Assembly (NCBI GenBank): GCA_000153145.1
Contig: CH672415.1
Coordinates: 672,565 to 712,640, forward strand
Length of the DNA: 40,076 nt
Direction: 5' to 3'
DNA from: a marine actinobacterium PHSC20C1
Lineage (GTDB): Bacteria; Actinomycetota; Actinomycetes; Actinomycetales; Microbacteriaceae
Position numbers and translations under genes: made by a program. This document shows positions 4,339 through 35,402 of the stretch, one piece after another (the stretch's first letter is position 1; each line of letters begins with the position of its first letter). The notes beneath the pieces are model-generated. The model saw only the letters and a program-made list of their open reading frames with translations. It had not been told where the DNA came from and did not search any database.

Positions 4339-4375
4339 ACAATTAGTAGGTCTCAACGAGGAGGCGGCGGAGAAC

Positions 4376-4423
4376 ATGACAAGAATCGAAATTCACCCAG
4401 GTCCGGATGATACTCCGTGCTGA
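4376..4423 (+). CDS. Possible 15-residue leader ORF overlapping the permease start
   Basis: ATG at 4376 follows a very purine-rich stretch (GAGGAGGCGGCGGAGAAC) and encodes MTRIEIHPGPDDTPC, stopping at TGA 4421-4423. The stop overlaps the first codons of the permease gene, whose GTG start (4417) has little Shine-Dalgarno sequence of its own; the next in-frame upstream codon boundary is a stop at 4408. The best ribosome site in the gap therefore serves this short frame, consistent with translational coupling to the permease. No protein family is recognised. It may be only a coupling device, or chance. Confidence 0.35.
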   Translation: MTRIEIHPGPDDTPC

Positions 4424-8351: not shown

Positions 8352-8397
8352 ACTAAAATAAAGTAATAGTATACTGATATAGAGAAAGAGGAGACGC
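8352..8397 (+). promoter_or_regulatory. AT-rich gap with GTATAC palindrome before the first catabolic arm
   Basis: The 46-bp spacer is far more AT-rich than the genes on each side. It contains AGTATACT (8368-8375), a perfect 8-bp palindrome sharing its GTATAC core with the palindrome in the gntR promoter (15276-15289). AAAGAGGAG (8385-8393) is the ribosome site for the gene at 8398. The gap could hold a separate promoter and operator; I see no convincing -35. Confidence 0.4.
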
Positions 8398-9264
8398 ATG
8401 GCAATCACGAAGCTGGCAGTGGTGGGTTCGGGCACAATGGGGCATGGGATCGGGCAACTCGCTGCGATGCAGGGCATAGCGGTGCGTGTGTTCGATGTCG
8501 ACGAGGTGGCTCTTGACCGTGCACGCGCAAGTGTGGCTACGAGCCTGGAGCGCTTCGTACGCAAGGAGACAATTACCGACGCACAGTCTCACGAGATCCA
8601 AGGCCGAATGGACTGGACGACCGACCTCGATGCTGCCCTTGTTGGAGTCGAAGCTGCGATCGAGGCTGTCCCCGAGGTTCTCGCGCTCAAGCAGAAGGTC
8701 TTCACCGATCTCGATGAGCGCACCGGACCCGAGGTCATGCTTGCAACCAATACGAGTCAGTTGAGTATCACCACCATTGCCTCGTCTGCGAAGCACCCGG
8801 AGCGTGTCGTCGGCATGCACTTCTTCAATCCGCCCGTCGTAATGCGCCTGGTTGAAATCATCCGCGGCACGATGACCTCGGACGAAATGCTCCAGCGGGC
8901 CATCGACTTCTCCGACCAGCTCGGCAAGGAGAACATCGTCTGCCAGCGGGACACCCCTGGCTTCATCACGACGCGAGCGATCATGGCGCTCCGACTCGAG
9001 TGCATCCGCATCTTCGAAGAGGGGATCGCATCCAAGGAAGATCTCGACAAGGCGATGCGCTTGGCCTTCAACCACCCCATGGGCCAGTTCGAGCTCAACG
9101 ACTACAACGGCCTCGATATAGCCCTTCAGGGCGCTCGCAACCTTCGTGAGGCATACGGCGACCGTTTCGCGCCTCCGCCCAGTCTGGTATCTCGCGTCGC
9201 CGCCGGACAACTGGGGCGCAAGACCGGAGCTGGCTGGTTCGAGTATCCGGACACTCAGAAGTGA
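8398..9264 (+). CDS. 3-hydroxyacyl-CoA dehydrogenase (single-domain, PaaH/HbdA type)
   Basis: A 288-residue NAD-dependent enzyme oxidising (S)-3-hydroxyacyl-CoA to 3-ketoacyl-CoA. The Rossmann dinucleotide motif is GSGTMG (10-15), with the acidic ribose-binding position in VFDVDE. The catalytic site is visible as S120 in ATNTSQLSI, H141 in GMHFFNPPVVM and E153 in LVEIIRG. The C-terminal 3HCDH domain contains DTPGFITTRAIMALRLECIRI and NDYNGLDIALQGARNL. Length fits the stand-alone family, not the fused multifunctional enzymes. Ribosome site AAAGAGGAG precedes the ATG. It is the first gene of the arm that runs to 14469 and supplies the third step of beta-oxidation. Confidence 0.92.
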   Translation: MAITKLAVVGSGTMGHGIGQLAAMQGIAVRVFDVDEVALDRARASVATSLERFVRKETITDAQSHEIQGRMDWTTDLDAALVGVEAAIEAVPEVLALKQKVFTDLDERTGPEVMLATNTSQLSITTIASSAKHPERVVGMHFFNPPVVMRLVEIIRGTMTSDEMLQRAIDFSDQLGKENIVCQRDTPGFITTRAIMALRLECIRIFEEGIASKEDLDKAMRLAFNHPMGQFELNDYNGLDIALQGARNLREAYGDRFAPPPSLVSRVAAGQLGRKTGAGWFEYPDTQK

Positions 9265-9315
9265 CCACGACGTCGTCAAAGCCCATAGATCACCAATAGC
9301 CGAGGAGAAACCATC

Positions 9316-10140
9316 ATGACCAAGGAAATGCCAACGTTCACCGATGTGTTGTACGAGAAGTCTGACCATGTTGCGCGCATCACCATCAACCGTCCTAAGT
9401 CTCTCAACGCCTACACCGGCATCACCATGCGTGAACTGTGCCTTGCGATCCAGGATGCATCATTCGATGCGGAGATCGGAGTAGTCGTCATCACCGGAGC
9501 GGGCGACCGCGCATTCTGTGCGGGCGGAGATGTCAAGTGGGAGGACGAAGGGGGTCTTGAGGCAACCTACGACTACTTCCCCGACATTCACAACGCGATC
9601 CGTTGCTGCCTCAAGCCCGTTATCGCGCGCGTCAACGGTTACGCGATCGGCGGTGGCCACCACATGGCATACGCCTGCGATCTGACTATCGCCGCCGACC
9701 ACGCTTTATTCGGCCAGAATGGCCCGAGCGTAGGCAGCCCTGCTGATGCGTTCACCGTTGCCCGACTCGCCACGATCATCGGGCACAAGCGTGCCAGGGA
9801 AATGTGGTTCCTCAACCGTCGCTACACAGCGGACCAGATGCTCGACTGGGGACTTGTCAATGCAATTGTTCCGCTCGCCGATCTCGATGCCGAAGTGGAC
9901 AAATGGTGCCAGGAGATTCTTTCCAAGAGTCCTACGTGTCTACGTGTGAACAAGGCATCCTTCGAAGGGGCGCTCGACAGCCTGCGCAATCCGACGTTCT
10001 CGGTCCAGCGCATGATCGCCCCGAACTACTTGGGTTCGGAGGAGCAGCTCGAAGGAACCAAGGCGTTCCTTGAGAAGCGCAGTCCTGAATTCAACAAGTT
10101 CCGCCGCAACATCCCCGAGTTGTACACGAGCGGAGTCTGA
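9316..10140 (+). CDS. Crotonase of the MenB/BadI type (possible ring-cleaving ketoacyl-CoA hydrolase)
   Basis: A 274-residue crotonase-fold protein. Oxyanion-hole segments are AFCAGGDVKW (66-75) and YAIGGGHHMAYACD (109-122). The two glutamates of enoyl-CoA hydratases are absent. Instead the GQNGPSVGS segment (133-141), IIGHKRAREMWFLNRRYTAD, NYLGSEEQLEGTKAF and EKRSPEF match naphthoate synthase (MenB) and 2-ketocyclohexanecarboxyl-CoA hydrolase (BadI). BadI makes pimeloyl-CoA by hydrolytic ring opening; MenB does the reverse type of chemistry. Ser141 and Tyr238 are kept, but the Asp after the Ser appears shifted by one (SPAD, with D144). No menaquinone genes are nearby, so a BadI-like role in an acyl-CoA pathway is favoured. 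Ribosome site GAGGAGA lies at 9302-9308. Confidence 0.75.
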   Translation: MTKEMPTFTDVLYEKSDHVARITINRPKSLNAYTGITMRELCLAIQDASFDAEIGVVVITGAGDRAFCAGGDVKWEDEGGLEATYDYFPDIHNAIRCCLKPVIARVNGYAIGGGHHMAYACDLTIAADHALFGQNGPSVGSPADAFTVARLATIIGHKRAREMWFLNRRYTADQMLDWGLVNAIVPLADLDAEVDKWCQEILSKSPTCLRVNKASFEGALDSLRNPTFSVQRMIAPNYLGSEEQLEGTKAFLEKRSPEFNKFRRNIPELYTSGV

Positions 10141-10147
10141 ACTGCGC

Positions 10148-10918
10148 ATGCCAATTCTTACCGAAGATCACGGCCACGTTCGCGTCATCACTATCGACAG
10201 GGCGGCCGCACGCAACGCGATCAACAGGGAAACCAGAGATGGTCTCGAGAAGGCGTTCACCGCCTTTTCCGATGACGACGATGCATGGATCGCAATTCTG
10301 ACCGGCGCGGGAGACAAGGCGTTCAGTGCTGGTGCTGACCTCAAGGAGATGGACCCGGCGGCGCGCGCCGACCCCAACTATGTCGCGCCGCCGTTTGGAT
10401 TCATCACAAGGGACTACCACACTGACAAGCCGCTTATCGCGGCGATCAACGGGGTTGCCCTCGGTGGCGGTCTCGAGCTCGCGCTTGCCTGCGATATACG
10501 GCTCGCAGCTGACCACGCAATGCTGGGCTTGACGGAGGCGCGGTGGTCACTGTTGCCGGGAGGCGGGGGTACGCAACGTCTCGCCCGCGGTATGCCGCGA
10601 GCCGTCGCCATCGAGATGCTCGTGACTGCAGAGCCGATCACGGCAGGTAGGGCGTACGAGGTCGGGCTGGTCAATCACGTCACCACATCGGCCGACCTGA
10701 TGCCGCGAGCCCTCGATCTGGCGAAGACCATCGCCAGCAACGGTCCACTTGCTGTGCGAGCGGCCAAGCGTGCCCTAGATGAGGGAGAGGGGCTCCCACT
10801 TGCTGATGCGCTCATGCTTGAACAGCGACTAAGCAAGGCGTTGTTCAGTACTGAGGATGCAATCGAAGGTCCTCGCGCATTTGCCGAGAAGCGCACACCT
10901 CAGTTCACCGCTCGATGA
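10148..10918 (+). CDS. Enoyl-CoA hydratase
   Basis: A 256-residue crotonase with both catalytic glutamates of true hydratases: E110 in LGGGLELALACD and E130 in LTEARWSLLPGGGGTQR. The oxyanion segment is AFSAGADLKEMD. It would add water across trans-2-enoyl-CoA. ATG 10148 is preferred to a longer frame beginning inside the previous gene because family homology starts at PILTEDHGHVRVITIDRAAARNA; GGAG (10132-10135) is a modest ribosome site. It follows the BadI-like gene by seven bases and precedes an acyl-CoA dehydrogenase, so the two could supply consecutive steps. Confidence 0.9.
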   Translation: MPILTEDHGHVRVITIDRAAARNAINRETRDGLEKAFTAFSDDDDAWIAILTGAGDKAFSAGADLKEMDPAARADPNYVAPPFGFITRDYHTDKPLIAAINGVALGGGLELALACDIRLAADHAMLGLTEARWSLLPGGGGTQRLARGMPRAVAIEMLVTAEPITAGRAYEVGLVNHVTTSADLMPRALDLAKTIASNGPLAVRAAKRALDEGEGLPLADALMLEQRLSKALFSTEDAIEGPRAFAEKRTPQFTAR

Positions 10919-10940
10919 TAGAAATAGATGGAGACAGAGC

Positions 10941-12104
10941 ATGACAACGACTTCCGCCCAAGAGACCGAAGGGCTATTCCAACTCCCGACGGAGGTAGAG
11001 GAATTCCGGCAATCTGCCCGCGCGTTCGCTGAGCGTGAGGTCGCTCCCTTGGTTGATGAGGCTGAGCGGACCAGCACCTTTCCTGTTCAACTCTTCAAGC
11101 GTGCGGGCGACCTCGGCTTACTCGGCCTGCAATTCGATCCCGAATGGGGAGGTGCGGGAGCGGGACTGCTTCCTGACCTGATCTTCAGGGAGGAGGTGTC
11201 GCGGGTGTGTGCCGGCATCGCTGCGGGGCTGGGCATTCAAGGGCAGATCGGCACCGCGTACCTCGCGCGTCACGGTTCGTCCGAGCAGAAGGACAGATGG
11301 TTGCGCCCAGCGCTCGCGGGCGACCTGATCACGGCATGGGCTCTCACCGAGCCTGACGCGGGCTCCGACGTCAGAGCAATTCGCACCCGCGTCAGCCGCG
11401 ATGGCGACACTTTCATACTCAATGGTCGCAAGACGTTCATCACCAATGGCCCCACCGCTGGCGCAATCGGAGTGGTGGCCCGCCAGAGTGACGACCGTTT
11501 CGCGGTGTTTGTTGTCGAGGCAGGTGACGAGGGATTCGAGTGCGAACGCGTGCTCGAGAAACTCGGCTGTCGTTCGTCCCAGGTCGGCGAGCTCGTATTC
11601 GACAACGTCAGGCTCGACGAGTCGCGTCGGCTCTCGCCGCCTGAGGGTTCAAGTATTGAGGCAATTCTCGATGTGCTCATCAGAGGGCGCGTGCTTATTG
11701 CGGCGGCTTCTCTCGGGGTGGCGAGTGCCGCGTTCGACATGGGATTGGCTTATGCGAAGGAGCGCGAAGCATTTGGCCGGCCGATCGGCCGATTTCAAGA
11801 GATCTCGATGAAGTTTGCAGAAGCTGATGCCCGCATTGCTGCCGCTCGGCTACTCACCTACCGCGCGGCTCACCTATGCGATACGCGGGATGCCGTTCCG
11901 ATCCGGGAGTGCGCACAGGCCAAGCTCATAGCCAGCGAGACCGCGCTGTGGGTAGTCGATCAGATGATGCGTGTCTTCGGCGGCATGGGCTTCATGCGGG
12001 GCTCACCTATTGAGCGGCTTTACCGCGACGTTCGGTACTTTCAGATCGTGGAAGGAACGACCGAGATCCAGCATCGCATTCTGGCAAAGGAGCTTGGACT
12101 GTGA
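10941..12104 (+). CDS. Acyl-CoA dehydrogenase
   Basis: A 387-residue FAD enzyme that makes 2-enoyl-CoA and passes electrons to ETF. The FAD/substrate segment is TAWALTEPDAGSDVRAIRTR, followed by ILNGRKTFITNGP and the C-terminal helical domain (AKEREAFGRPIGRFQEISMKFA, VFGGMGFMRGSPIERLYRD). The probable base is E371 in VEGTTEIQ, the position used by short- and medium-chain enzymes. ATG 10941 after GGAGACAGAGC is preferred over an upstream start inside the hydratase gene. It is clearly paralogous to the dehydrogenase at 26296: both share REAFGRPIGRFQEISMKFA and the same C-terminal block. Confidence 0.93.
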   Translation: MTTTSAQETEGLFQLPTEVEEFRQSARAFAEREVAPLVDEAERTSTFPVQLFKRAGDLGLLGLQFDPEWGGAGAGLLPDLIFREEVSRVCAGIAAGLGIQGQIGTAYLARHGSSEQKDRWLRPALAGDLITAWALTEPDAGSDVRAIRTRVSRDGDTFILNGRKTFITNGPTAGAIGVVARQSDDRFAVFVVEAGDEGFECERVLEKLGCRSSQVGELVFDNVRLDESRRLSPPEGSSIEAILDVLIRGRVLIAAASLGVASAAFDMGLAYAKEREAFGRPIGRFQEISMKFAEADARIAAARLLTYRAAHLCDTRDAVPIRECAQAKLIASETALWVVDQMMRVFGGMGFMRGSPIERLYRDVRYFQIVEGTTEIQHRILAKELGL

Positions 12105-12874
12105 CAACTGAACTGCTCAGCGATAGGGATGGAAGCGTAGCGATCCTGACGCTCAATCGTCCTTCTGCGGGGAACAGCCTGACGTTAGGGCTCATCGATG
12201 AGTTGGGCCGAGCACTCGCGGACCTTCGCGAAGACCCCGCTGTCGCGGTTATTGTTATAACTGGTAGTGGCGACCGTGCGTTCTGCGCCGGTACTGACCT
12301 CAAGGACGCGCCGCCCGTGACACCATGGGATGATCAATTTGGGGTCACCCCACACCATCTCTCCCGCGGCATGGAGGTATGGAAACCTGTGATCGCGGCG
12401 GTGAATGGCTATGCGATCGGTGGCGGGTTTGAACTCGCTCTCTCCTGCGACCTACGCTACGCCTCTAGCTCGGCCACATTCTCTCTGCCCGAGGCACGGC
12501 TCGGAACCATGCCAGGAGCCGGGGGTACCCAGCGGATCATCCGTCAGGCGCCGCACGCCCTTGCGATGGAACTTCTGCTTCTGGGGGAGCGATGGGACGC
12601 AGCAAGGATCCTCGCTGCAGGCTTGCTCAACGGCGTGTGCGAGCCAAGCGAGCTCATGGCAACGACCATGGATGTTGCTCATCGCGTTGCTCGAAATGCG
12701 CCGCTCTCCCTCCGAGCTATCAAGCAGGCAGTCTCTCGTGGGCGTCACTTGGAACTTGGTGCGGCGCTCACCCTTGAGCGTACCTTATTCAATTTGCTCC
12801 GCAATACCGAGGACCGCAAAGAGGGACGTGCTGCGTTCGCTGAGAAGCGCGACCCTGAGTTTCGCGGTCGTTGA
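12101..12874 (+). CDS. Enoyl-CoA hydratase
   Basis: A 257-residue crotonase with E111 (IGGGFELALSCD) and E131 (SLPEARLGTMPGAGGTQR), the pair needed for hydration, and the oxyanion segment AFCAGTDLKDA. GTG 12101 overlaps the dehydrogenase stop (GTGA), so it is translationally coupled to the enzyme whose product it would hydrate. The second ordinary hydratase in this arm, after the one at 10148; the two differ in the substrate loop after the oxyanion segment and probably act on different intermediates. Confidence 0.9.
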   Translation: MTTELLSDRDGSVAILTLNRPSAGNSLTLGLIDELGRALADLREDPAVAVIVITGSGDRAFCAGTDLKDAPPVTPWDDQFGVTPHHLSRGMEVWKPVIAAVNGYAIGGGFELALSCDLRYASSSATFSLPEARLGTMPGAGGTQRIIRQAPHALAMELLLLGERWDAARILAAGLLNGVCEPSELMATTMDVAHRVARNAPLSLRAIKQAVSRGRHLELGAALTLERTLFNLLRNTEDRKEGRAAFAEKRDPEFRGR

Positions 12875-12895
12875 CGACAATCCAAGGAGAATGAC

Positions 12896-14059
12896 ATGAA
12901 TCAAACACCATCCACCAACCTTAGGGGCCGGGGTGCCATCGTCGGTGTCGGTCGAACGGCAATGGGGAACCTGCAGGGCAGCACTGCGCTCGGACTCGGC
13001 CTCGAAGCCCTACGGCTCGCCATCGAGGATGCGGGCATCAGCAAGGATGAGATTGATGGGATCCTCACCCACCCAGGTACCACCTCGCGAGAGGGAGCAA
13101 ACCACTACCTGCGCTTCAGCGAGGCCGCAGGCATCGATCCGCGCTACGCAGCTTCGAAGTCCATGGGAGGGTCGACGGCGGGGGCGCTCGTGCAGGAGGC
13201 GATCATGGCGATCGACGCGGGACTGGCAACTACAGTCGCATGTGTTTTCGGTGACGCGGCCCGAACTGGGGGGCAGAAGTTCAATTCGCCTAGCGGAGAT
13301 CCCGGGCTCAGCTGGGGGATCTGGGGCATGTTTGGCCCGCAGGCGAACAGCGCGATGGGGGCACGGCGGCACATGGCACAGTACGGAACGACGAGCGAAC
13401 AGCTGGGCGCGGTCTCTGTCACGTTCAGGGAACACGCTCAGAACAACCCTGATGCGGTCATGTACGGCAAGACGATCACGCTCGAGGATCATCAGAAGTC
13501 TCGCATGGTGGTCGAGCCCTTCCACCTCCTCGATTGCTGCCTCATTAGTGATGGTGGAGTGGCGATAATCGTCACCTCCGCTGAGCGGGCGAAGGATCTC
13601 AAACATCCACCCGTACTCGTGGCTGGAATGGGCCAGGGATACACGGCACGCAAGAACGAGCGGGAGGACTGGTGGTATCTGCCTCACCAGAAGAATGTTC
13701 TCGAGTCGGCATTCGCGATGGCAGGAGTGGGACCCGAGGACATCGACGTTGCCCAGTTCTACGACAATTTCACATTTTCCGTCCTGCTATGGCTGGAGCA
13801 CGGCGGCTTCTGCCAACCTGGTGAGAGCGGGCCCTTCGTTGCGGAGGGAAACCTCAAGATGGGCTCGAGGCTACCTTCCAATACGCACGGTGGCAGCCTC
13901 TCCGATGCTTACATGCAGGGCTGGACACATATCGTCGAAGGGGTCCGCCAAGTGCGTGGCGAGGCAGGCGACCGCCAGGTGCCGGGCGCAGAGACATGTC
14001 TGACAACGGGCCGCGGCATGGCGCTCAACACCGCGAACGCATTGGTGCTGACTCGATGA
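12896..14059 (+). CDS. Thiolase-fold protein lacking the active cysteine; probable Ltp2-type side-chain aldolase
   Basis: A 387-residue protein of the SCP-x/lipid-transfer thiolase superfamily. Where thiolases carry the acylated Cys, the sequence reads SKSMGGSTAGAL (88-99), with no Cys. The usual HDCFT and GHPxGA motifs are replaced by QFYDNFT with Tyr289 and SLSDAYMQG with Tyr339. As I recall, the steroid side-chain aldolase Ltp2 of Thermomonospora uses two tyrosines, 294 and 344, spaced exactly as here. Ltp2 works only in complex with a DUF35 protein, and a DUF35 gene follows with a 4-base overlap. The likely reaction is retro-aldol cleavage of a beta-hydroxyacyl-CoA, releasing a short acyl-CoA and a ketone or aldehyde. 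Annotation pipelines would probably say acetyl-CoA acetyltransferase. Confidence 0.8.
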   Translation: MNQTPSTNLRGRGAIVGVGRTAMGNLQGSTALGLGLEALRLAIEDAGISKDEIDGILTHPGTTSREGANHYLRFSEAAGIDPRYAASKSMGGSTAGALVQEAIMAIDAGLATTVACVFGDAARTGGQKFNSPSGDPGLSWGIWGMFGPQANSAMGARRHMAQYGTTSEQLGAVSVTFREHAQNNPDAVMYGKTITLEDHQKSRMVVEPFHLLDCCLISDGGVAIIVTSAERAKDLKHPPVLVAGMGQGYTARKNEREDWWYLPHQKNVLESAFAMAGVGPEDIDVAQFYDNFTFSVLLWLEHGGFCQPGESGPFVAEGNLKMGSRLPSNTHGGSLSDAYMQGWTHIVEGVRQVRGEAGDRQVPGAETCLTTGRGMALNTANALVLTR

Positions 14060-14469
14060 GCGCCTACGAGAAGCTGCTGCCCGATACCTTGGATGGCTCG
14101 AAGCCCTTTTGGGATGCATGCCGTCGTCACGAGTTGACTATCCAAGAATGCCTAGAATGCGGCCATCGACGCTGGCCAATCGGTCCTGCATGCACTCACT
14201 GCTTGTCCACCGACTTCTCGTGGGTTGGGGTTGCGGGTACGGGTGAAGTGTGGTCGTGGATCACCTATCACCAAGCGTTCAATTCCGCATGGGCGGCTGA
14301 CGTTCCATACAACGTTGCTCTCATTCGGATGGATGAGGGACACACCATGATCTCGAACATTGTGGGCGTGACGCCGGACGAAATCAGAATAGGTCAACGG
14401 GTGGAGGTCCTGTTCGAGGATGTGACCGATGAGGCGTCGGTCCCCAAGTTCCGACCGGTGAAACCGTGA
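14056..14469 (+). CDS. DUF35 zinc-ribbon/OB-fold partner of the thiolase-fold protein
   Basis: A 137-residue protein with a zinc ribbon formed by Cys32, Cys35, Cys46 and Cys49 (CLECGHRRWP and CTHC), then an OB-fold beta domain (GTGEVWSWITYHQAF, NVALIRMDEGHTMISNIVG). Proteins of this family bind thiolase-fold enzymes and, in steroid side-chain degradation, are needed for aldolase activity. ATG 14056 overlaps the previous stop (ATGA); a start at 13996 lies inside the partner gene and adds no family sequence. Last gene of the first arm, ending 14 bp from the convergent regulator gene. Confidence 0.88.
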   Translation: MSAYEKLLPDTLDGSKPFWDACRRHELTIQECLECGHRRWPIGPACTHCLSTDFSWVGVAGTGEVWSWITYHQAFNSAWAADVPYNVALIRMDEGHTMISNIVGVTPDEIRIGQRVEVLFEDVTDEASVPKFRPVKP

Positions 14470-14483
14470 ACGATGCGTGCTCC

Positions 14484-15260
14484 CTAAGCGTCTCCGGGCT
14501 GGTGGCGGAACTCAGCCCAATGCGGATTCTCCAGCACAGTCTCGAACGCACCGATGTGGCGCATCATGCGTCGAGCGGCCACATCCGGTTGCTTGTCTCT
14601 GATTGCCGCAAAGATGCGTTGATGAGCCTGAATCGTGGCATCGATTTCAGTGCCGAGCGCATCAAAGGCGCGACTGAAAATGAGCTGCTGGGTCGTCGCG
14701 GTGAGCGCTGAAATTACCCCGTTGTGCGAGGACTGGGCAATGAGAACATGGAACCGTGCTGCCTCCTCGGCAACGATCGAGGGATTGTCTCGGTGTTTAA
14801 CTGTACGAGCGAGACACTCATCGATACGAGCGAGATCTTCTGCGGTCGCGCGCACTGAAGCGAGTCGCACCGCGAGGGGTTCCATGAGTGCGCGTGCTTC
14901 GAGTAGTTCATCGGTCGTCGTGTTCTCGACGGATAGGATCACGTCGAGAATCGTCGCCAATCGCTCGATTTTGGGCCGCGTAACGTATGCCCCGCCGTGC
15001 CGTCCGGCGCGCATCTGGACGAAGCCGTCGGACTCCAGCAGCATGAGCGCCTCGCGTACCGTGGCACGACTGACACCGAGTTGTTCGATTAGTTCGCGCT
15101 CAGTGGGGAGTCGGTCCCCAATCACCAACGCACCGCTGCGGATCTCGTCGCGGATTTGGGCCGCGATCACTTCGGCGAGCTTGCCCTGTTTGATCTTGTC
15201 GAACACCACATCGGGCAAATTTATCTCGTCTCCGCGAATCAGCCTGTCGACCCGACTCAT
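14484..15260 (-). CDS. GntR-family transcriptional regulator, FadR/FCD subfamily
   Basis: A 258-residue one-component regulator. A winged-helix domain (about 25-95) has the GntR pattern LPTERELIEQLGVSRATVREALMLLESDGFVQMRAGRHGGAYV. An all-helical FCD effector domain (about 105-240) has metal-site candidates H171 (ARFHVLIAQ), H213 and H235 in the usual places. FCD regulators bind carboxylic acids or acyl-CoAs and mostly repress neighbouring operons and themselves. The start at 15260 has a weak ribosome site. A perfect palindrome lies 16-29 bp upstream of it. Lying between two arms, one convergent and one divergent, it is the obvious pathway-specific regulator of this island. Confidence 0.92.
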   Translation of the reverse strand: MSRVDRLIRGDEINLPDVVFDKIKQGKLAEVIAAQIRDEIRSGALVIGDRLPTERELIEQLGVSRATVREALMLLESDGFVQMRAGRHGGAYVTRPKIERLATILDVILSVENTTTDELLEARALMEPLAVRLASVRATAEDLARIDECLARTVKHRDNPSIVAEEAARFHVLIAQSSHNGVISALTATTQQLIFSRAFDALGTEIDATIQAHQRIFAAIRDKQPDVAARRMMRHIGAFETVLENPHWAEFRHQPGDA

Positions 15261-15275
15261 CTCATTGGTGGAATT

Positions 15276-15289
15276 ACTCGTATACGAGT
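15276..15289. promoter_or_regulatory. Candidate FCD-regulator operator, ACTCGTATACGAGT
   Basis: A perfect 14-bp palindrome between the divergent gntR and CoA-transferase genes. Its core TCGTATACGA resembles the TnGT...ACnA operator pattern described for FadR-subfamily GntR proteins. On the minus strand it overlaps the region just before the gntR start, so binding would shut off the regulator's own gene. The related core GTATAC recurs at 8368-8375. Confidence 0.55.
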
Positions 15290-15324
15290 CAACTATATTC
15301 TACACCCACCGCGTGCGGTCAAAG

Positions 15325-15342
15325 TATGCTACTATTAGCATA
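15325..15342. promoter_or_regulatory. Second palindrome in the divergent promoter, TATGCTA-N4-TAGCATA
   Basis: Perfect 7-bp arms with a 4-bp spacer, 17 bases before the start of the CoA-transferase gene at 15360 and inside the most AT-rich part of the gap (CATAAT at 15339-15344 is a possible -10). GGAGGG (15349-15354) is the ribosome site. It is distinct in sequence from the GTATAC palindrome, so either a second regulator or a lower-affinity site may be involved. Confidence 0.45.
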
Positions 15343-15359
15343 ATATTTGGAGGGATCCG

Positions 15360-16580: not shown

Positions 16581-16585
16581 TCGAC

Positions 16586-20087: not shown

Positions 20088-20100
20088 TGGAAGGATGCTC

Positions 20101-23410: not shown

Positions 23411-24651
23411 ACAGGGTTGCGAGCGGTGGGGCGGCCGACGGCGAAAACCCCGCTGCACCGAAGTCGCGGGGTGGATTGCTCATCGTGACTCTGACCTTGG
23501 CGATGGCGACCGGGGCCACGGGCACATACACGCTCGGGGCTCTCTCTCCGTTCATTGTGTCGGAGTTCTCCCTTGGCGCTGGTGGGATCGGAGTGCTAAT
23601 CAGCGCGCTGTACGTCACTGCGGCCAGCTTCAGCGGCATTATCGGCCGACGAGCCGACCGAGTTGATCCTGCCTTCATCATTCTGGCAGGAGCGTGTTGC
23701 TCCCTCATCGCGGCGGTTGTGTTCGCGGTTGCGCCGAACGTTGCCGTACTTGTCGTTTTCGCGCTGTTCGCCGGGCTTGCAATGGCAGCATCCAACCCGG
23801 GCAGCAACGGAATGATCGCCCGCAGGCTTCCTCCGGGTTCGCGCGCATATGCAACTGGTCTCAAGCAATCGGGTGCTACTGGGACGGGACTCTACATCGC
23901 TGGGGTCATGCCGACTCTTGCGATCATAGTTGGCTGGAGGGGGGCAGCTCTTGCGGCGGCAGTCATCCCGATGCTCGCGATCATTGCAGTTCTGTGGAGC
24001 AGGCGCGGTCAGACAAATGAACTTGATCTTGACGCCGTGCCCGACGCAATTGAGCATCCTCGCCAGTCCCGGTGGCTGTTGTGGCTATCGGCGTACGCGT
24101 TGGTCCTGGGAATCGCCACTGGGATATGCAATGCGTTCTACGTGCTGTATTCGTCCGAGAGGCTCGGATTCACTGTCGTCGAGGCCGGGTTCGTTTTCGC
24201 AAGTTTCGGCGTGGCTTCGGTGATCGCGAGAGTCGTGTGGGCGCGCCTCGCGGAGCGCGGGCTCGACACAGGCCGTCTGCTCGCGATCATCGCGGTGATT
24301 GGCGCAGTATCTGCCCTTCTTTGTCTCGCGGCTCCCTATATCGGGGGGTGGGCGATGTGGACCGCCGCGGTGTTCGCGGGCTCATCCATAGTCGGTTGGA
24401 ACGCGTTGGCCATGGTCACCATCATGAAGCGTGTGCCCGTGAATGCGGTTGGAGCCTCATCGGCAAGGATGCTCAGGGCGTTCTTCATCGGCCTTGCGAT
24501 CGGACCGCTCCTCTTCGGAGGACTTGTCGAACTAACCAACTATCTGTTGGGCTGGATACTGCAGTTCGCGGCACTTGGGCTGGCGCTCGTCTTCGCCATT
24601 CTGTTCGGACGCGCGCTGCACTCCCGTACGTCTCGGGAGGTGGCATTGTGA
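23407..24651 (+). CDS. Major facilitator superfamily transporter
   Basis: A 414-residue inner-membrane carrier with about 12 hydrophobic segments in two halves. The A-motif-like loop GIIGRRADRVDP lies between helices 2 and 3; the loop between the halves runs from about LWSRRGQTNELDLD to RQSRW. SNPGSNGMIARRLPPGSRAYATGLKQSGATG is a conserved conformational segment seen in organic-acid and drug carriers of this type. ATG 23407 and the stop overlap both neighbours by four bases. It may import a carboxylic-acid substrate or export an intermediate; family sequence does not decide. With the ABC system it gives the island two transport routes. Confidence 0.88.
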   Translation: MNRVASGGAADGENPAAPKSRGGLLIVTLTLAMATGATGTYTLGALSPFIVSEFSLGAGGIGVLISALYVTAASFSGIIGRRADRVDPAFIILAGACCSLIAAVVFAVAPNVAVLVVFALFAGLAMAASNPGSNGMIARRLPPGSRAYATGLKQSGATGTGLYIAGVMPTLAIIVGWRGAALAAAVIPMLAIIAVLWSRRGQTNELDLDAVPDAIEHPRQSRWLLWLSAYALVLGIATGICNAFYVLYSSERLGFTVVEAGFVFASFGVASVIARVVWARLAERGLDTGRLLAIIAVIGAVSALLCLAAPYIGGWAMWTAAVFAGSSIVGWNALAMVTIMKRVPVNAVGASSARMLRAFFIGLAIGPLLFGGLVELTNYLLGWILQFAALGLALVFAILFGRALHSRTSREVAL

Positions 24652-25493
24652 AGACAGGCATATCCCGCGCGGTCTACCCGCCAGATTCGTGGTCGTGGAG
24701 CGAATCAGACGTGCGAACCTACGCCCTTGCGATCGGCGCACCACATTCGCCGCTGGATGAGGATGATCTCCTATTGGTTAAGGACGATCAGCCGATCGTG
24801 TTTCCTACGTTCGCTGTTCTGCGGGCGGATGCGCATAGCCTGCGTTACGTGCCCCTCCAGGACGTGCACTACGACGCGCTCGATGTCATCTACGCGGGAC
24901 ACGAGCTTGAGGTGTTCGGCGCGCTTCCCGCGGAAGCACGAGGCACGACGACCACTCGCCTACTCGACGTGGGCGATATAGCCTCCGGTGTGCTGGTGGT
25001 CCGAGAGGCAATCACGGCCGATGAGTCGGGCCTGACTCTCGCGCGGAATGTTGTGACGAGTATCATCCGTGGGGCGTCTGTGGGCATCCCCGCGAAGCGC
25101 GCCGCACGCCCCGCAGTGCCCGATCAATTCGACTGTGAAATTGTTGTCCCAACCCTCCCGCAGCAGGCCTTCCTTTATGCCCAGACGGGGGATCACAATC
25201 CTCTTCACCTGGATCCAGTCGCAGCACGCCTGGGGGGATTCTCGCGACCGATCTTGCATGGACTGTGCACATACGCGATGGTCGCGCACGCGCTCGTGCG
25301 GGAGCTTGGCGAGAAGCGCTGGACATCGATGCGCCGAGTTGGAGCGCGGTTTACAGCGCCGGTGACTCCGGGAGATCGGATCATCGTGCGGGCCTCGACC
25401 TCTGGCGAGGGCATTCGCTTCGGGGCGTGGGTTAGGGCTGATGACGAGGAACGACAGGTGCTGGCCCAAGGCGAACTACTGTTCGATGACTGA
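24648..25493 (+). CDS. MaoC-type double-hotdog (R)-enoyl-CoA hydratase
   Basis: A 281-residue tandem hotdog protein like the hydratase-2 unit of peroxisomal multifunctional enzyme 2. The C-terminal half carries the hydratase-2 motif AQTGDHNPLHLDPVAARLGGF with catalytic Asp182 and His187, followed by RPILHGLCTYAM. The N-terminal half (about 5-150) is the substrate-binding hotdog without catalytic residues. GTG 24648 overlaps the MFS stop; a frame open from 24072 runs inside the MFS gene and has no family sequence. (R)-hydratases of this kind serve bulky or branched enoyl-CoAs in steroid and isoprenoid breakdown, consistent with the aldolase and racemase calls. Confidence 0.88.
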   Translation: MKTGISRAVYPPDSWSWSESDVRTYALAIGAPHSPLDEDDLLLVKDDQPIVFPTFAVLRADAHSLRYVPLQDVHYDALDVIYAGHELEVFGALPAEARGTTTTRLLDVGDIASGVLVVREAITADESGLTLARNVVTSIIRGASVGIPAKRAARPAVPDQFDCEIVVPTLPQQAFLYAQTGDHNPLHLDPVAARLGGFSRPILHGLCTYAMVAHALVRELGEKRWTSMRRVGARFTAPVTPGDRIIVRASTSGEGIRFGAWVRADDEERQVLAQGELLFDD

Positions 25494-25504
25494 TAGGCGA
25501 CGAT

Positions 25505-26299
25505 ATGACATCTGACTACACATACATCCGTTCAGCGACGGTCGCAGGACACGTCGCGGAGGTGCGCATCAACCGCCCCGAACGCCGCAACGCGTTGACG
25601 ATCGGCGTGCTCAGCGAGCTGTCGCATGCCCTCGATGCCGCGGTTGCCGACCCCGAGATTCGAGTGGTGATTCTGGCGGGCGAGGGGAAGTCCTTCTGCG
25701 CGGGCGCAGACCTGCACGCTGTGCACAATACTGAGCTCGCCGAGCGCAACGAGATCGGTCTCGGATCCGCGCGACTGTGGGAGCAGCTCGGCTCTCTTGA
25801 GATCCCGGTGATCGCGGCCGTACAAGGACACGCGATCACGGGTGGGCTTCATCTAGCGATGTGCTGTGATCTCATCGTCGCTGCCGAGGATGCCGTTTTC
25901 CAGGACACGCACGCCCGATTGGGCCTCGTGCCCGGATCGGGTGAGCCGCAGAGAATTTCGCGGCGTATCGGCATCGTTGCGGCCCGTGAGATGCTCCTGA
26001 CATCACGGCGATTCAGCGCGGCGGAGGCGCAGCAGATGGGAATGGTGAGCCGAGTGGTGCCTGCCGAGCAGCTTGAATCGGCGGCTCTGGCTCTCGCTGG
26101 CGAGATTGCAGCGAACAACCCCCGCGGTGTGCGCTACATCAAACGCATGCTCAATGGCGGATGGGGCAAGCCCTACGGGGAGGCCCAATGGGAGGACACA
26201 ATTCTGAACTGGGGCGGTCGCCTTAACGAACGTCCGGATGATGACGCGGCGGAGCGCTTGAAAGCCTTTCGTGAGCGTTCCAGAAGGGAGACGAAGTGA
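25505..26299 (+). CDS. Crotonase-family protein lacking both hydratase glutamates
   Basis: A 264-residue crotonase fold with normal oxyanion elements (SFCAGADLHAV; HAITGGLHLAMCCD) but His116 where hydratases have the first Glu and His136 where they have the second (FQDTHARLGLVPGSGEPQR). Simple hydration is therefore unlikely; isomerase, hydrolase or lyase activity is possible, as other crotonases use different side chains. The ATG at 25505 lies 11 bases after the MaoC stop. Its stop overlaps the following dehydrogenase start (GTGA). The name enoyl-CoA hydratase, which a similarity search would give, probably misdescribes it. Confidence 0.82.
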   Translation: MTSDYTYIRSATVAGHVAEVRINRPERRNALTIGVLSELSHALDAAVADPEIRVVILAGEGKSFCAGADLHAVHNTELAERNEIGLGSARLWEQLGSLEIPVIAAVQGHAITGGLHLAMCCDLIVAAEDAVFQDTHARLGLVPGSGEPQRISRRIGIVAAREMLLTSRRFSAAEAQQMGMVSRVVPAEQLESAALALAGEIAANNPRGVRYIKRMLNGGWGKPYGEAQWEDTILNWGGRLNERPDDDAAERLKAFRERSRRETK

Positions 26300-27441
26300 T
26301 CTCACTAGGTAGCTTGGGCACGGACCTTGACGAATTGCGACAGGTGGCGCGCGCGTTCGCGGATCGCGAAATCGAATCTCGCGTGGATGAGGCGGAGAGT
26401 GCTGAGCACTTCCCGACTGAGCTCTTCCGCCTCGCCGGAGCCAACGGATTCATCGGCAGTCACTACCCCGTCGACGTCGGCGGCGGGGGAGGAGGGATCG
26501 CTGCAGCGATGGTGCTCCGGGAGGAGTTCTCCTACAGCTCTGTCGGCATCTCCTCTGGTCTCGGCCACCAGGATCACGTGGGCACCGCCTACCTCCACCG
26601 CTTCGGGTCACCCGAGCAGATCGATCGCTGGCTGCGACCGGCACTCGCCGGGGAGTTCGTGATCGCTATGGCGGTGACGGAACCGGATGCTGGATCCGAC
26701 GTGCGGCGCATGCGCAGCAAGGCTCGCCGCGAGGGGAACGAGTGGGTGATAACCGGGCGCAAGACGTTCATCACGAATGGACCACTGGCCGATGGGATCG
26801 CCATTGTCGTTCGCCTGGCAGATACGACCGACCGGTTCGGTGTCTTTGTTGTACTGCGCGGAGATCCGGGCTACCAGTGCGAGCGCACTCTCGGCAAAAT
26901 GGGCTGCAATTCCTCCGAAGTCGGAGAGCTTGTGTTCGACGACGTGCGTGTCGGGCCCGACCGCATGCTCTCGCCAGAGGGCGGCAGCTCATTAGAAGAC
27001 GTGCTCGACGTGCTCGTCCGCGGTCGGGTTCTTGTGGCAGCCTCCGCGCTCGGACTGGCGAGGCGAGCATTCGACGTCGGGATGGAGTACGCGAAGCAAC
27101 GGGAAGCGTTCGGGAGGCCAATCGGGCGATTCCAGGAAATATCAATGAAATTCGCGGATGCGAGCACGGCGATCCGGGCGGCTCACCTGATCACCTACGA
27201 CACCGCCGCCCTGCTGGAACGCGACAGCACGGTTCCCGTGCTGGAGTGCTCGCAAGCGAAGCTCTTCGCCTCAGAGACCGCGGTCATGGTCGTGGATCAG
27301 ATGATGAGGGTGTTCGGCGGCGCGGGCTTCATGCAATCGTCCGTCATCGAGCGGCTATACCGTGACGCCCGATTTTTTACGATCGTCGAGGGCACCGTCG
27401 AGATCCAGCACCGAATAATCTCCTCCCACCTAGGGTTGTGA
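26296..27441 (+). CDS. Acyl-CoA dehydrogenase
   Basis: A 381-residue FAD enzyme, close paralogue of the one at 10941: shared segments include GRKTFITNGP, REAFGRPIGRFQEISMKFA, VDQMMRVFGG and VEGTxEIQHRI. FAD/substrate segment AMAVTEPDAGSDVRRMRSK; likely base E365. GTG 26296 overlaps the crotonase stop and follows AGAAGGGAGACGAA, a strong ribosome site. One copy in each arm suggests duplication and specialisation, perhaps for two rounds of chain shortening. Confidence 0.93.
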   Translation: MISLGSLGTDLDELRQVARAFADREIESRVDEAESAEHFPTELFRLAGANGFIGSHYPVDVGGGGGGIAAAMVLREEFSYSSVGISSGLGHQDHVGTAYLHRFGSPEQIDRWLRPALAGEFVIAMAVTEPDAGSDVRRMRSKARREGNEWVITGRKTFITNGPLADGIAIVVRLADTTDRFGVFVVLRGDPGYQCERTLGKMGCNSSEVGELVFDDVRVGPDRMLSPEGGSSLEDVLDVLVRGRVLVAASALGLARRAFDVGMEYAKQREAFGRPIGRFQEISMKFADASTAIRAAHLITYDTAALLERDSTVPVLECSQAKLFASETAVMVVDQMMRVFGGAGFMQSSVIERLYRDARFFTIVEGTVEIQHRIISSHLGL

Positions 27442-28217
27442 TCGTGGTCGATTCGCTTCTTCACGCTGCACCATCCTTCAGGCTGGATGGCAAGACTGCC
27501 CTCATTACGGGCGCGAGCAGGAACATCGGCTTCGCGATCGCCTGCGCCTTTGCGCACGCCGGAGCGGACTTACTACTCGTGGCGCGCGGAAGGGAACGGC
27601 TCGAGCAGGCAGCGGTCGCGATCCGCGATGGTGCGGGAGTCAGGGTCAAGACGGTCGTTGCCGATGTCAGCACTCCGGAGGGTCTCGACAGCGTTGCGGC
27701 AGAAGCTGACGGACTTTCCTCCGTCGACATTCTCGTGAACAACGCCCATACGGTCGGCTCCTCGCCGGGTAAGTCCCTCTTCGAGCTGGAGGAAGACGTG
27801 TGGGATGAGGTACTCGCCACTAACCTCCTTGGCCCGTTCCGCTTGTGCCGCAAGTTCGGCCGCGCGATGTTGGACGGCTCGGGGGGAAGCATCATCAACG
27901 TGGTTTCGGGCTCCGGGTTCTTGCCTGCTCCCGGGCTCGGCGCATATGGGTCGAGCAAAGCCGCGCTCTGGATGATGACTCGTTACCTCGCCGTCGAGGG
28001 CGCTCCCAAGGTTCGCGTCAACGCGCTCTGCCCCGGCCTCGTAAGTGAGGATGGTGAGCCGAGGAACGATTCGCATCGTGCCATCATCAAGGATGTGCCC
28101 ATGGGCCGGGTCGCGACACCTGATGAAGTCGCGGGGGCGGCCCTCTACCTCTCATCGCCTGCTGCGAGCTACACGACCGGCGAGGTTCTCATCGTGAACG
28201 GCGGCCGCGCGTGGTAG
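27438..28217 (+). CDS. Short-chain dehydrogenase/reductase
   Basis: A 259-residue NAD(P)-dependent oxidoreductase of the classical SDR type. Cofactor motif TGASRNIG (24-31), structural motif NNAH (101-104), and catalytic residues S157 or S159, Y170 and K174 (AYGSSKAAL). It ends with the usual TGEVLIVNGGRAW block. GTG 27438 overlaps the dehydrogenase stop. It most likely oxidises or reduces a hydroxyl/keto group on the substrate or, with the (R)-hydratase at 24648, serves as an (R)-3-hydroxyacyl-CoA dehydrogenase as in multifunctional enzyme 2. Last gene of the unbroken overlap chain; a 103-bp gap follows. Confidence 0.9.
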   Translation: MIVVDSLLHAAPSFRLDGKTALITGASRNIGFAIACAFAHAGADLLLVARGRERLEQAAVAIRDGAGVRVKTVVADVSTPEGLDSVAAEADGLSSVDILVNNAHTVGSSPGKSLFELEEDVWDEVLATNLLGPFRLCRKFGRAMLDGSGGSIINVVSGSGFLPAPGLGAYGSSKAALWMMTRYLAVEGAPKVRVNALCPGLVSEDGEPRNDSHRAIIKDVPMGRVATPDEVAGAALYLSSPAASYTTGEVLIVNGGRAW

Positions 28218-28320
28218 CACAAAGCACGTCGCTGTCGTCAATGAGTGACCGAGTCCGCCTGTGCGTTATCCTGTCACGAGCGGTTTGGCTAAGTCTCTGT
28301 GTGAAAGAAGGGTTGCCTGA
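28218..28320 (+). promoter_or_regulatory. 103-bp gap before the ETF genes, possible separate promoter
   Basis: This is the first sizeable break in the second arm. It holds no gene. AGAAGGG (28306-28312) is a good ribosome site for the following ATG. Weak promoter-like hexamers (TTATCC near 28266) are present but no clear -35/-10 pair, and no palindrome like those at gntR. Separate expression of the ETF genes is possible but not shown. Confidence 0.25.
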
Positions 28321-29091
28321 ATGAAGATCGTCGTTCTGATCAAGGAGGTCCCCGACACGTGGGGTGACCGTCGGCTCAATTCCGAGACGGGACTTCTCGA
28401 CCGTGCGGGGGCGGAACCGGTGGTCGACGAGATCAACGAGCGTGCCCTCGAGGTTGCCCTCACCTACGCGGATGCTCAGACCGGGACCGAGATCGTCGCG
28501 CTCGCCATCGGCCCAGCGAGTGTTCCCACGAGCCTGCGGAAGGCGCTCGGCATGGGCGCCGATAGTGCTGTACACGTTCTTGACGACGCTCTCGTCGGGG
28601 CCGACATCACACTGACCGCACAGGTGATCGCCGCGGCAATCAAGCGGATCGGCTTCGACCTCGTCATCGCGGGCAATGTATCGACGGATGGCGGCGGATC
28701 AGCGATCCCGTCCATGGTTGCCGAGCTGCTCGGAGTTCCCGGTGCAACCTACCTCAATGCTGTCGAGATCACGGTGGATGCGGTAACCGGTCGACGGGAA
28801 ACTGAGGCTGGTTCTTTCGGTGTGAAGGCTGCGCTGCCTGCGGTCATCTCCATAACCGAGGCACTGCCGGATGCCCGTTTCCCCAACTTCAAGGGCATCA
28901 TGGCCGCGAAGAAGAAGCCGTTCGAGACGCTGTCCTTGGGCGACTTGGATATCACGCCCACTGAGGAGTCTCGCTCGATCGTGCTCAATGTTACCCAGCG
29001 CCCCGCGCGGACCGCGGGCACCGTCATCACCGATGAGGGCGACGCGGGCCAGCAACTCGCCGACTTCCTTGCCAAGAACCAACTGATCTAG
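28321..29091 (+). CDS. etfB: Electron transfer flavoprotein beta subunit
   Basis: A 256-residue ETF beta chain, which with the alpha chain accepts electrons from the acyl-CoA dehydrogenases of this island. Evidence: N-terminal KIVVLIKEVPDT, EINERALEVAL, the AMP-binding region GNVSTDGGGSAIPSMVAELLG, and the ETF-beta signature region VTGRRETEAGSFGVKAALPAVISITEALPDARFPNFKGIMAAKKKP. Length fits the family. A dedicated ETF pair beside three dehydrogenases suggests these need their own electron carrier. Confidence 0.95.
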   Translation: MKIVVLIKEVPDTWGDRRLNSETGLLDRAGAEPVVDEINERALEVALTYADAQTGTEIVALAIGPASVPTSLRKALGMGADSAVHVLDDALVGADITLTAQVIAAAIKRIGFDLVIAGNVSTDGGGSAIPSMVAELLGVPGATYLNAVEITVDAVTGRRETEAGSFGVKAALPAVISITEALPDARFPNFKGIMAAKKKPFETLSLGDLDITPTEESRSIVLNVTQRPARTAGTVITDEGDAGQQLADFLAKNQLI

Positions 29092-29103
29092 GGACGATCC
29101 GTC

Positions 29104-30090
29104 ATGACTGAATTCGCAACCGACTCCATCCTCGTACTCGTGGAGGTGTCGCCGAGTGGCGCTGTTCTACCCAGCGCCGCCGGCCTGATCGGTGCCGCCG
29201 CCGCGATCGGATCACCCGTTGCGCTCGTGGTGGCCGCCCCGGGCGCAGGTCCCGCCGCTGCGAAGGCTGCTGGCGAGTTCGGTGCCACGCAGGTGCTCGT
29301 CGCTGAACGACCGGATGCCGCCACCTCCCTGCTCGTACCCACAGTCGACTCGCTCGCTGCCGCTGCCGCCTTGGTCAGCCCCCAAGCGGTGCTGCTCTCT
29401 CATTCGGTGCAGGGCCGGGATGTCGCCGCCCGGTTCGCGGCGCGTACGGGCTCCGCGCTGGCGGTAGACGCCGTCGGAATCTCGCGTGACGACGAGGGAC
29501 CTGTCGTCCACCACTCCGTGTACGGCGGTTCCTACCTGGTCGATTCGGCGGCCTCGTCGGGAGCGATTGTGTTGACGGTGCGGCAGGGAGCGATCGAGGC
29601 CAGGGCGGCAGCCACGAAGCCCACCATCGAGACGCTCGAGGTACCGGCGAGCGGGATGCGCGATGTCGACATCGTCGACTTCGAGGAGGTCGTCGTCGCG
29701 TCATCCCGACCCGAGCTTCGGGGAGCGAAGACCGTGGTTTCGGGCGGTCGTGGACTCGGATCGGCAGAGAAGTTCGCGCTCGTTGAGGAGCTCGCCGATG
29801 TGCTGGGAGCTGCGGTCGGAGCATCCCGAGCTGCGGTGGATGCCGGCTATGTGCCCCAATCGCACCAGGTGGGTCAGACGGGTGTCACGGTCGCTCCGCA
29901 GCTGTACATCGCGCTCGGGATCTCAGGCGCGATCCAGCACCGCGCTGGCATGCAGACCGCGAAGACGATCGTCGCCATCAACAAGGACGCGAACGCTCCG
30001 ATCTTCGAGATCGCCGACTTCGGCATCGTCGGCGACCTGTTCGCGGTCGTTCCGCAGTTGGTATCCGCGATCCAGTCGAAGCGGAAGTAG
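29104..30090 (+). CDS. etfA: Electron transfer flavoprotein alpha subunit
   Basis: A 328-residue ETF alpha chain carrying FAD. The C-terminal FAD domain contains [72 protein letters not shown] and [26 protein letters not shown], all diagnostic. The N-terminal half is the less conserved domain that packs on the beta chain. ATG 29104 lies 12 bases after the beta stop, with GGGACGATCC between. Followed five bases later by a membrane cytochrome gene. Confidence 0.95.
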
Positions 30091-30095
30091 CTCTC

Positions 30096-31199
30096 GTGGT
30101 ACGTCAGGGTCTGCCCCGTTCATCCGGAGATGATCCGGGCGCGGAGTCGAAGTCCGAGCTGACCACTCCGCCAGCCGCTCCGCCAAAGCCTGATACGGCG
30201 GCCCCGGCCGTGCGGCGCGGACTCTCAGTGCTGCCCGATCGGGTCATCGCTCCCGCGACAGTGCCGGTTGAGCCCGCGCCGCCGGGAACCCGACCAGAAC
30301 CTGCTGTAGGGCGTCGGCCGATCGGCAGGACGGCCCGCGCCATCCTGATCGGTGTGGGCCTGATCGTCCTCCTGGCGCTGGCGGTCCTTCTGGCCCGCTG
30401 GCTGGTCGGACTCGACGGCGTGCGGGACTTCATGACGACCTACCCAGGCCAGAGCGAGCTGCCCGAGGGGGCGCCGGTAGGCTTCCCCGCGTGGCTGGGC
30501 TGGCAACACTTCTTCAATACCTTCCTCATCGTGCTCATCATCCGCTCCGGCTGGCAGGTGCGCACGCAGAAGAAGCCACCAGCATCATGGACGCCGAAAT
30601 GGTCGAGTGGCCGCAAGATCAGCATCACTCTCTGGCTGCACCAGTCACTGGACCTGCTCTGGCTGGTCAACGGTGTGATCTTCGTCGTGCTCCTGTTCGC
30701 CACCGGCCAGTGGATGCGAGTTGTGCCAACCAACTGGGATATCATCCCCAACGCGATCTCCGCCGGCCTGCAGTACGTCTCCCTCGACTGGCCGACCGAG
30801 CACGGCTGGGTCAACTACAACGCCCTCCAGCTGATCGCCTACTTCGTGACAATCTTCATCGTGGCCCCGCTCGCGGCGATCACCGGGGTGCGGATGTCCG
30901 GCCTGTGGCCAGCCCAGGCAACGCGCCTGAACCGCCTCTACCCGGTCGAGTGGGCGCGCGCCGTGCACCTGCCCGTGATGCTGTACTTCGTGGCGTTCAT
31001 CATCGCGCATGTCGCCCTCGTGCTGGCGACCGGGGCGCTGCGCAACCTCAACCACATGTACGGCGGACAGGATGCCGTCAACTGGGTCGGCTTCGGAATC
31101 TTCGCCGCGTCCCTGCTGGTCATCGTCGGGGGTTGGTTCGCCGCCCGCCCATTGGTGATCGCGCCCATCGCGAGCCTGTTCGGTCGCGTCGGACGCTAA
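30096..31199 (+). CDS. Membrane cytochrome b (b561/b6-like), probable electron acceptor linked to ETF
   Basis: A 367-residue integral membrane protein. A Pro- and charge-rich N-terminus (1-78) precedes about six hydrophobic segments near 80-102, 133-150, 186-203, 245-265, 291-312 and 331-350. Histidines H138, H182, H291 and H305 sit in or at segments; the H291-H305 pair in [15 protein letters not shown] has typical heme-b spacing. No iron-sulfur, FAD or molybdenum motif is present. GTG 30096 starts five bases after etfA, implying co-translation. The simplest reading is a quinone-linked or electron-relaying cytochrome that takes ETF electrons to the membrane, as no ETF:quinone oxidoreductase is in the window. 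Other cytochrome b roles cannot be excluded. Confidence 0.75.
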
Positions 31200-35382: not shown

Positions 35383-35402
35383 GGGGTTCCACCTAAGAGG
35401 TC

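Follow-up and report, generated by a model that had tools for sequence, protein, structure and literature searches.

What acid does the marine actinobacterium PHSC20C1 degrade with the tightly packed genes of coenzyme A (CoA)-linked metabolism found in a 40,076-nucleotide stretch of its genome, and on what kind of DNA do these genes lie? The stretch, hereafter the window, covers positions 672565-712640 of a single 2.77-Mb contig, and coordinates refer to the window unless given as contig positions. In it, 28 genes at 2779-31199 form a functional unit, 23 of which lie inside 8398-31199, where a first-pass annotation had counted about 20. They fall into two co-directional plus-strand runs, the first of 12 genes (2779-14469) and the second of 15 (15360-31199), with a minus-strand GntR/FCD regulator between them; within the runs, most neighbours overlap or are separated by a few bases. 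Our reading, to which we give a probability of about 0.6, is that this tRNA-Val-integrated island takes up and degrades a probable branched or alicyclic dicarboxylic acid by CoA transfer, desaturation, hydration and retro-aldol cleavage, and that the electrons pass to EtfBA and then to a cytochrome b. The wider assignment, of an island that catabolises a CoA-linked acid and has a single regulator of its own, is supported, and the island itself is real, conserved and mobile, with parts of known kinds. A search of open-licence PubMed Central (PMC) texts found no described cluster with this gene combination, in keeping with the first-pass annotation, which knew of no such pathway.

The island is conserved in a second genome

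The same gene order was sought in other genomes, as the first-pass annotation had proposed. An Actinomycetales metagenome-assembled genome, G058, holds 27 of the 28 island genes, from the binding protein to the cytochrome, with 53-84% protein identity and in near-identical order; a MenB/BadI-like gene alone was not found there, and the gene for a short-chain dehydrogenase/reductase (SDR) sits at another place in the row. In the flanks of this sister island none of the other window genes was seen except as weak paralog matches, and these flanks differ from those of the window. The arrangement exceeds chance, since two mostly overlapping co-directional runs are combined with the retention of 27 genes in a second genome with different surroundings. 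Among 99 genomes searched (that of PHSC20C1 included), only its own genome and G058 gave a match to the island aldolase at E <= 1e-100, and none of the 26 same-genus genomes did so. A near-identity search of the island against a plasmid collection returned one record, with a 44-base match in the electron transfer flavoprotein (ETF) genes. Related gene sets are nevertheless located on plasmids in other organisms: Chelativorans sp. AA-79, from petroleum-contaminated soil, has a conjugative plasmid of which 20 coding sequences were compared, and 11 of these pair with island genes as reciprocal best hits (28-59% identity).

The sister island also keeps, at 71-79% identity, an Opp/Dpp-type ATP-binding cassette (ABC) importer (binding protein 2779-4338, permeases 4417-5364 and 5361-6272, ATPases 6269-7309 and 7236-8351; PF00496, PF00528, PF00005), which we count in the unit for that reason. 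The importer listed earlier is thus part of the island, although it lies at 2779-8351, outside the range first described; a major facilitator superfamily permease (23407-24651; PF07690) lies within that range. The single regulator noted earlier is the GntR/FCD gene at 14484-15260 (PF00392, PF07729), which probably controls the island. A perfect 14-bp palindrome (15276-15289, no strand) between gntR and caiB1 is a possible operator, a role weakened by the finding that the sister stretch lacks a copy even when 3 mismatches are allowed. Besides, the single copy of ACTCTTATCA in the window (2710-2719) stands upstream of the importer, and the sister's importer likewise has this sequence ahead of it; it is a possible promoter or operator element.

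A predicted Ltp2-type retro-aldolase and its OB-fold partner

The first-pass annotation had named an aldolase pair, and a thiolase-fold protein (12896-14059) is indeed followed by an oligonucleotide/oligosaccharide-binding (OB)-fold protein with a Zn ribbon (13996-14469), which carries the ChsH2-type domains PF01796 and PF12172. In a PDB search the best hit of the former was TcLtp2, a steroid aldolase (6ok1, 256.5 bits), compared with 103.7 bits for the BbsB entry 7pxp; BbsB itself we take to be a thiolase with a Cys nucleophile. According to the portion of PMC12329534 available, the catalytic residues of TcLtp2 are Tyr294 (in the motif YDHF) and Tyr344, and the related CtSal (Sal) has Gly at the position of the thiolase nucleophilic Cys. 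Tyr289 (in YDNF) and Tyr339 of the island protein align with the two TcLtp2 tyrosines, and its Gly92 stands at the thiolase Cys column, which is occupied by Cys in 7yvy_A and in the homologue from locus L035. Of 17 aligned rows, 16 have the first Tyr and 14 the second, which L013, L014 and L035 lack; Gly stands in 16, and L035 alone has Cys. As Gly stands at the Cys column and both Ltp2 tyrosines are kept, the protein should, judged by its residues, be a retro-aldolase of the Ltp2 type, which narrows the earlier assignment. On the same grounds a thiolase function was rejected.

A benzylsuccinate-type CoA-transferase pair suggests a dicarboxylic substrate

Five CaiB-family proteins are encoded in the second run. 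CaiB2 (17761-18870) and CaiB3 (18831-20087) pair one to one with the two chains of the benzylsuccinate CoA-transferase 9fn0: CaiB2 matches the BbsE chain (9fn0_A) with 189 bits, the next score being 56, and CaiB3 matches the catalytic BbsF chain (9fn0_B) with 333 bits, the next being 163. Asp188 of CaiB3 aligns with the catalytic Asp of the BbsF chain and is kept in 16/16 rows. The corresponding column in the BbsE chain is Asn; it is Asp in the window and its sister and not in the 13 other rows of 15. From sequence, the two proteins look like a BbsEF-type heterodimer, and activation of this type suggests a dicarboxylic acid as substrate. No CoA ligase family appeared in scans of the 28 island genes, the only part of the genome searched for one. 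CaiB1 (15360-16580; PF02515) and CaiB5 (22202-23410) are further class III CoA-transferases. For CaiB4 (20068-21276) and CaiB5 there is no clear relative comparable to 9fn0. The racemase listed earlier corresponds to CaiB4, which is ambiguous between CoA-transferase and racemase, as it scores 201.8 bits against a formyl-CoA transferase entry and up to 176 against racemase entries.

The closest known parallel to the pair is the beta-oxidation of benzylsuccinate (Bbs), which shares with the island the two-subunit class III CoA-transferase, chain by chain, together with a crotonase, an acyl-CoA dehydrogenase and the pair of thiolase-fold and OB-fold proteins. It differs in that Gly takes the place of the nucleophilic Cys in the island's thiolase-fold protein, in the additional CaiB, acyl-CoA dehydrogenase and crotonase genes of the island, and in serving, as known, anaerobic toluene degradation. 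An adjacent CaiB pair also stands beside UbiD genes on plasmid 2 of Aromatoleum EbN1, presumably the phthalate-type SptAB, with 31% identity to caiB2 and 33% to caiB3. The island has no UbiD gene, however, and the F-type protein of that pair matches caiB3 with 175 bits, barely above the 168 for caiB5.

A core module recurs across phyla

A BbsF-like transferase, an ech2-like crotonase, the aldolase and the OB gene occur together at 12 of 13 loci (L001-L012 of L001-L013); the 12 include the sister island (L012) and, in L002 and L003, two loci that look almost the same. A BbsE-like subunit accompanies this core at 11 loci; at L007 none was seen in the locus, and one lies elsewhere in the genome or beyond the examined stretch. 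Of the 13 loci, 12 have the ech2-like crotonase directly beside the aldolase; the exception is L013, with acad2 in between. By their titles, the core loci come from Chloroflexi, from Proteobacteria, mostly Burkholderiales, and from Actinobacteria, and a Variovorax plasmid has all five core genes. An MmgE/PrpD-like gene adjoins the core at the proteobacterial L002-L006 and L008, flanked there by the BbsF-like gene and the crotonase, and at the actinobacterial L011. In other phyla (L014, L001, L007, L009 and L010) the core was seen near genes for thiamine pyrophosphate-enzyme-like or MmgE/PrpD-like proteins or for tripartite tricarboxylate transporters, suggesting polycarboxylate substrates there. 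The first catalytic Glu of the ech2-type crotonase is kept in 17/17 rows.

We know of no role for this module of BbsEF-type transferase, crotonase, Ltp2-type aldolase and OB partner, which recurs across phyla, is testable and could cleave tertiary alcohols. A tertiary-alcohol intermediate is reported for anaerobic naphthalene degradation, for which a novel ring-opening lyase has been proposed, as far as the excerpted text of PMC11659651 goes. The thn operon described there resembles the island in CoA transfer, acyl-CoA dehydrogenation, a tertiary-hydroxyl intermediate and a predicted lyase; it differs in that ThnP is a family I CoA-transferase, and the same excerpt names no Ltp2-type lyase. 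The core module is one candidate type for the cleavage of this alcohol. As the island's set of genes is carried on a mobile element, the trait could spread.

Proposed pathway and alternatives

In the pathway that we propose, the Opp/Dpp-type importer would bring in the acid, probably branched or alicyclic and dicarboxylic, and CaiB2/CaiB3 with the other CaiB proteins would load CoA by transfer rather than by ATP-driven ligation. The acyl-CoA dehydrogenases (acad1, 10857-12104, with an EGTTEI motif; acad2, 16535-17764; acad3, 26296-27441, 60% identical to acad1; PF00441 for acad1 and acad2) would desaturate the thioester, and the crotonase ech2 (12101-12874; PF00378) would hydrate a substituted beta-carbon to a tertiary alcohol. 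Oxidation of such an alcohol to a ketone is impossible; instead, the Ltp2-type aldolase and its OB partner would cut the C-C bond by retro-aldol cleavage, giving an acyl-CoA and a ketone, an oxo-acid or an opened ring. Further rounds of beta-oxidation would be run by the other dehydrogenases and hydratases, and electrons would flow from the dehydrogenases through EtfBA to the cytochrome b. A FadA-like host thiolase above the TIGR01930 cut-off and a FadB-like protein are encoded just outside the element (contig 732508-735827), by which the host can supply ordinary thiolysis. The earlier picture of a branched or alicyclic acid thus holds for catabolism of a CoA-linked acid, and the BbsEF-type pair refines it towards a dicarboxylic one.

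Several observations weigh against this reading. The acyl-CoA dehydrogenase, crotonase and SDR genes match generic families only, below curated cut-offs, and the genome has five further acyl-CoA dehydrogenase matches and four further CaiB matches outside the island. His296 of Ltp2 is replaced by Asn in the island aldolase, and at L013 an aldolase occurs without the CoA-transferase pair in the locus. Conversely, a plasmid region of Rhodococcus opacus 3D has a BbsF-like transferase beside a Cys-type thiolase, so that the transferase does not imply the aldolase. Only 4 of 17 rows, the window and its sister among them, retain the second catalytic Glu of ech2, and the core's crotonase may therefore not act alike everywhere; cores of the Burkholderiales type, in addition, have the MmgE/PrpD-like gene.

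One alternative, along the lines of the first-pass annotation, is a monocarboxylic alicyclic or isoprenoid acid (terpenoid or naphthenic), with CoA supplied by a CoA-transferase internal to the pathway. The set of crotonases, acyl-CoA dehydrogenases and hydratase fits such a route, as does the origin of the related plasmid set in petroleum-contaminated soil. The BadI-like hydrolase named in that annotation, however, is a protein (9316-10140) scoring 261.8 bits against a TIGR03210 cut-off of 467.6, a weak resemblance, and the sister has no counterpart. Cyclohexanecarboxyl-CoA dehydrogenase is likewise unmatched, with scores of 180.5, 140.1 and 168.4 against a cut-off of 575.35. With no CoA ligase among the scanned island genes, and a BbsEF-type pair known for dicarboxylic acids, we consider a monocarboxylic substrate unlikely.

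A steroid or bile-acid side-chain island, in which the Ltp2-type aldolase shortens side chains and CaiB4 is a side-chain racemase, would account for a steroid aldolase as the best solved relative, for the ChsH2-type partner and for the MFE-2-type hydratase. The island aldolase shares with Ltp2 the fold, both tyrosines and the OB-fold partner; it differs in having YDNF instead of YDHF, and its neighbours are not steroid genes. No steroid-ring-degradation family was found among the 28 island genes, to which the scan for such families was confined, and CaiB2/CaiB3 point to benzylsuccinate-type acids, which makes a steroid substrate improbable. An alkyl- or arylsuccinate pathway of the benzylsuccinate type ending in ordinary thiolysis is very improbable: the BbsE/BbsF pair, the OB partner and the thiolase fold agree with it, but Gly92 and the lower score against BbsB than against Ltp2 do not. 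The dicarboxylic pathway with retro-aldol cleavage is hence the reading that we retain.

A cytochrome b as candidate electron outlet of the ETF

EtfB (28321-29091) and EtfA (29104-30090) are the only PF01012 matches in the whole genome, and they are followed by a membrane cytochrome b (30096-31199; PF01292, 32.5 bits). PF05187, the marker of ETF:quinone oxidoreductase (ETF-QO), gave 0 matches in the own genome, the only one tested, and PF02754, as in EtfD, gave 0 matches in this genome and in G058. ETF is present in 12 of the 27 genus genomes; the 11 others with ETF hold 12 ETF operons, in 10 of which a cytochrome b homologue follows etfA (not in L046 and L048). Because these genus genomes lack the island aldolase, the cytochrome goes with ETF and not with the island. 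The sister island and a Cnuibacter plasmid also have the cytochrome b after the ETF genes. His138, His182, His291 and His305 are invariant in 15/15 sequences. The match covers a cytochrome b561-type domain only, with no iron-sulfur domain, and a PDB search with the protein gave nothing at E up to 1. No ETF-linked cytochrome b of this kind was found described in the open-licence PMC papers searched.

The island cytochrome b may be a new ETF:quinone link. Extending this to a third kind of ETF:quinone oxidoreductase beyond ETF-QO and EtfD, namely an iron-sulfur-free, b-type membrane protein that takes electrons straight from ETF, with the island thus bringing its own outlet to hosts otherwise devoid of ETF, is a tentative proposal that we hold at somewhat less than even odds. 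EtfD has a b heme beside the menaquinone site, as stated in the part of PMC13083937 at hand. Like EtfD and ETF-QO, the island protein would be a membrane partner of ETF; it differs in its cytochrome b561-type domain and in lacking an iron-sulfur domain. Against a link to ETF, 14 of the 20 plasmid matches listed (of 78) lie under otherwise annotated genes, nearly all of them molybdopterin-dependent oxidoreductases, and two Arthrobacter regions have the cytochrome gene without ETF nearby, so the domain has other partners as well. In 10 of the 27 genus genomes, of which two (G005 and G009) bear ETF, open frames some 1000 aa long give weak PF02754 matches (22.7-27.1 bits). The etfB-etfA-cytochrome b triad is a candidate route of beta-oxidation electrons to quinone in bacteria without ETF-QO or EtfD markers.

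The island lies in an integrated element of the chromosome

A tyrosine integrase is encoded at contig 667090-668421, and a 30-bp direct repeat occurs at contig 666891 and 724312, the second copy lying at the end of a tRNA-Val (gac) gene; the element that encloses the island measures 57451 bp. In the relative G005 both flanks align gap-free around a single repeat copy in the same tRNA, which represents the empty site. The left marker thrS is present in 26/27 and the right marker EI24 in 24/27 genus genomes. Their distance is 0.6-11.9 kb in 21 of the 23 other genomes with both, compared with 58.1 kb in the window's genome; it is 48.6 kb in G012, and in G021 the markers lie at opposite ends of one contig. 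The G+C content of the island is 61.3%, against 57.7-57.8% on either side, and none of 92 overlapping, equally long flank segments exceeds 58.2%. Cnuibacter and Protaetiibacter are among the relatives of single genes, which suggests Microbacteriaceae as the probable host family. On account of the integrase, repeats, empty site, marker distances and G+C content, the island is mobile DNA integrated in the chromosome. The first-pass annotation had placed it on an apparent plasmid; that origin was rejected, since the window lies on the 2.77-Mb contig inside the integrated 57.45-kb element and no separate replicon is involved. The mobility between hosts suggested along with it is borne out, with an integrated chromosomal element as the carrier.

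Among the scanned element proteins the only conjugation-related match was one T2SSE-type fragment, no systematic search for relaxase or type IV secretion having been made. The tRNA-Val site is also occupied in G012, by a different element whose integrase shares 85% identity with the present one over 403 residues. At the left border of the island (258-2489) lie two transposase genes, one ISAZ013-type and the other DDE_Tnp_1_4. The stretch at 34648-40075 encodes a family A DNA polymerase, a sigma-70-like factor and a 989-aa protein that matches only phage families of unknown function; this module of the element is phage-like or plasmid-like. The right part of the element (contig 719310-723886; L023:6670-11246) encodes an XhoI-family restriction endonuclease and an Eco57I-type methylase.

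Other genes of the island

Family matches in 8398-31199 confirmed the inventory given earlier of five CaiB proteins, three acyl-CoA dehydrogenases, four crotonases, SDR, ETF and cytochrome, and two genes are added to it: a 3-hydroxyacyl-CoA dehydrogenase (8398-9264; PF02737/PF00725; 76% identity in the sister) and a luciferase-like oxidoreductase (21273-22205). The latter passes the F420-dependent family TIGR03619 (198.7 bits, cut-off 166.9). Use of F420 was rejected, since CofD, the sole F420 synthesis gene looked for, had 0 matches in the genome and 10 of 14 controls were positive. BadI function of the MenB/BadI-like crotonase was rejected for its score below the curated cut-off; the protein is under the MenB cut-off too. 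The remaining crotonases are ech1 (10070-10918) and ech3 (25505-26299), both PF00378, and the SDR oxidoreductase is encoded at 27438-28217. Finally, the (R)-hydratase described as MFE-2-like proved to be a MaoC/MFE-2-type protein (24648-25493; PF01575, PF22622), the start codon of its gene being picked by eye.

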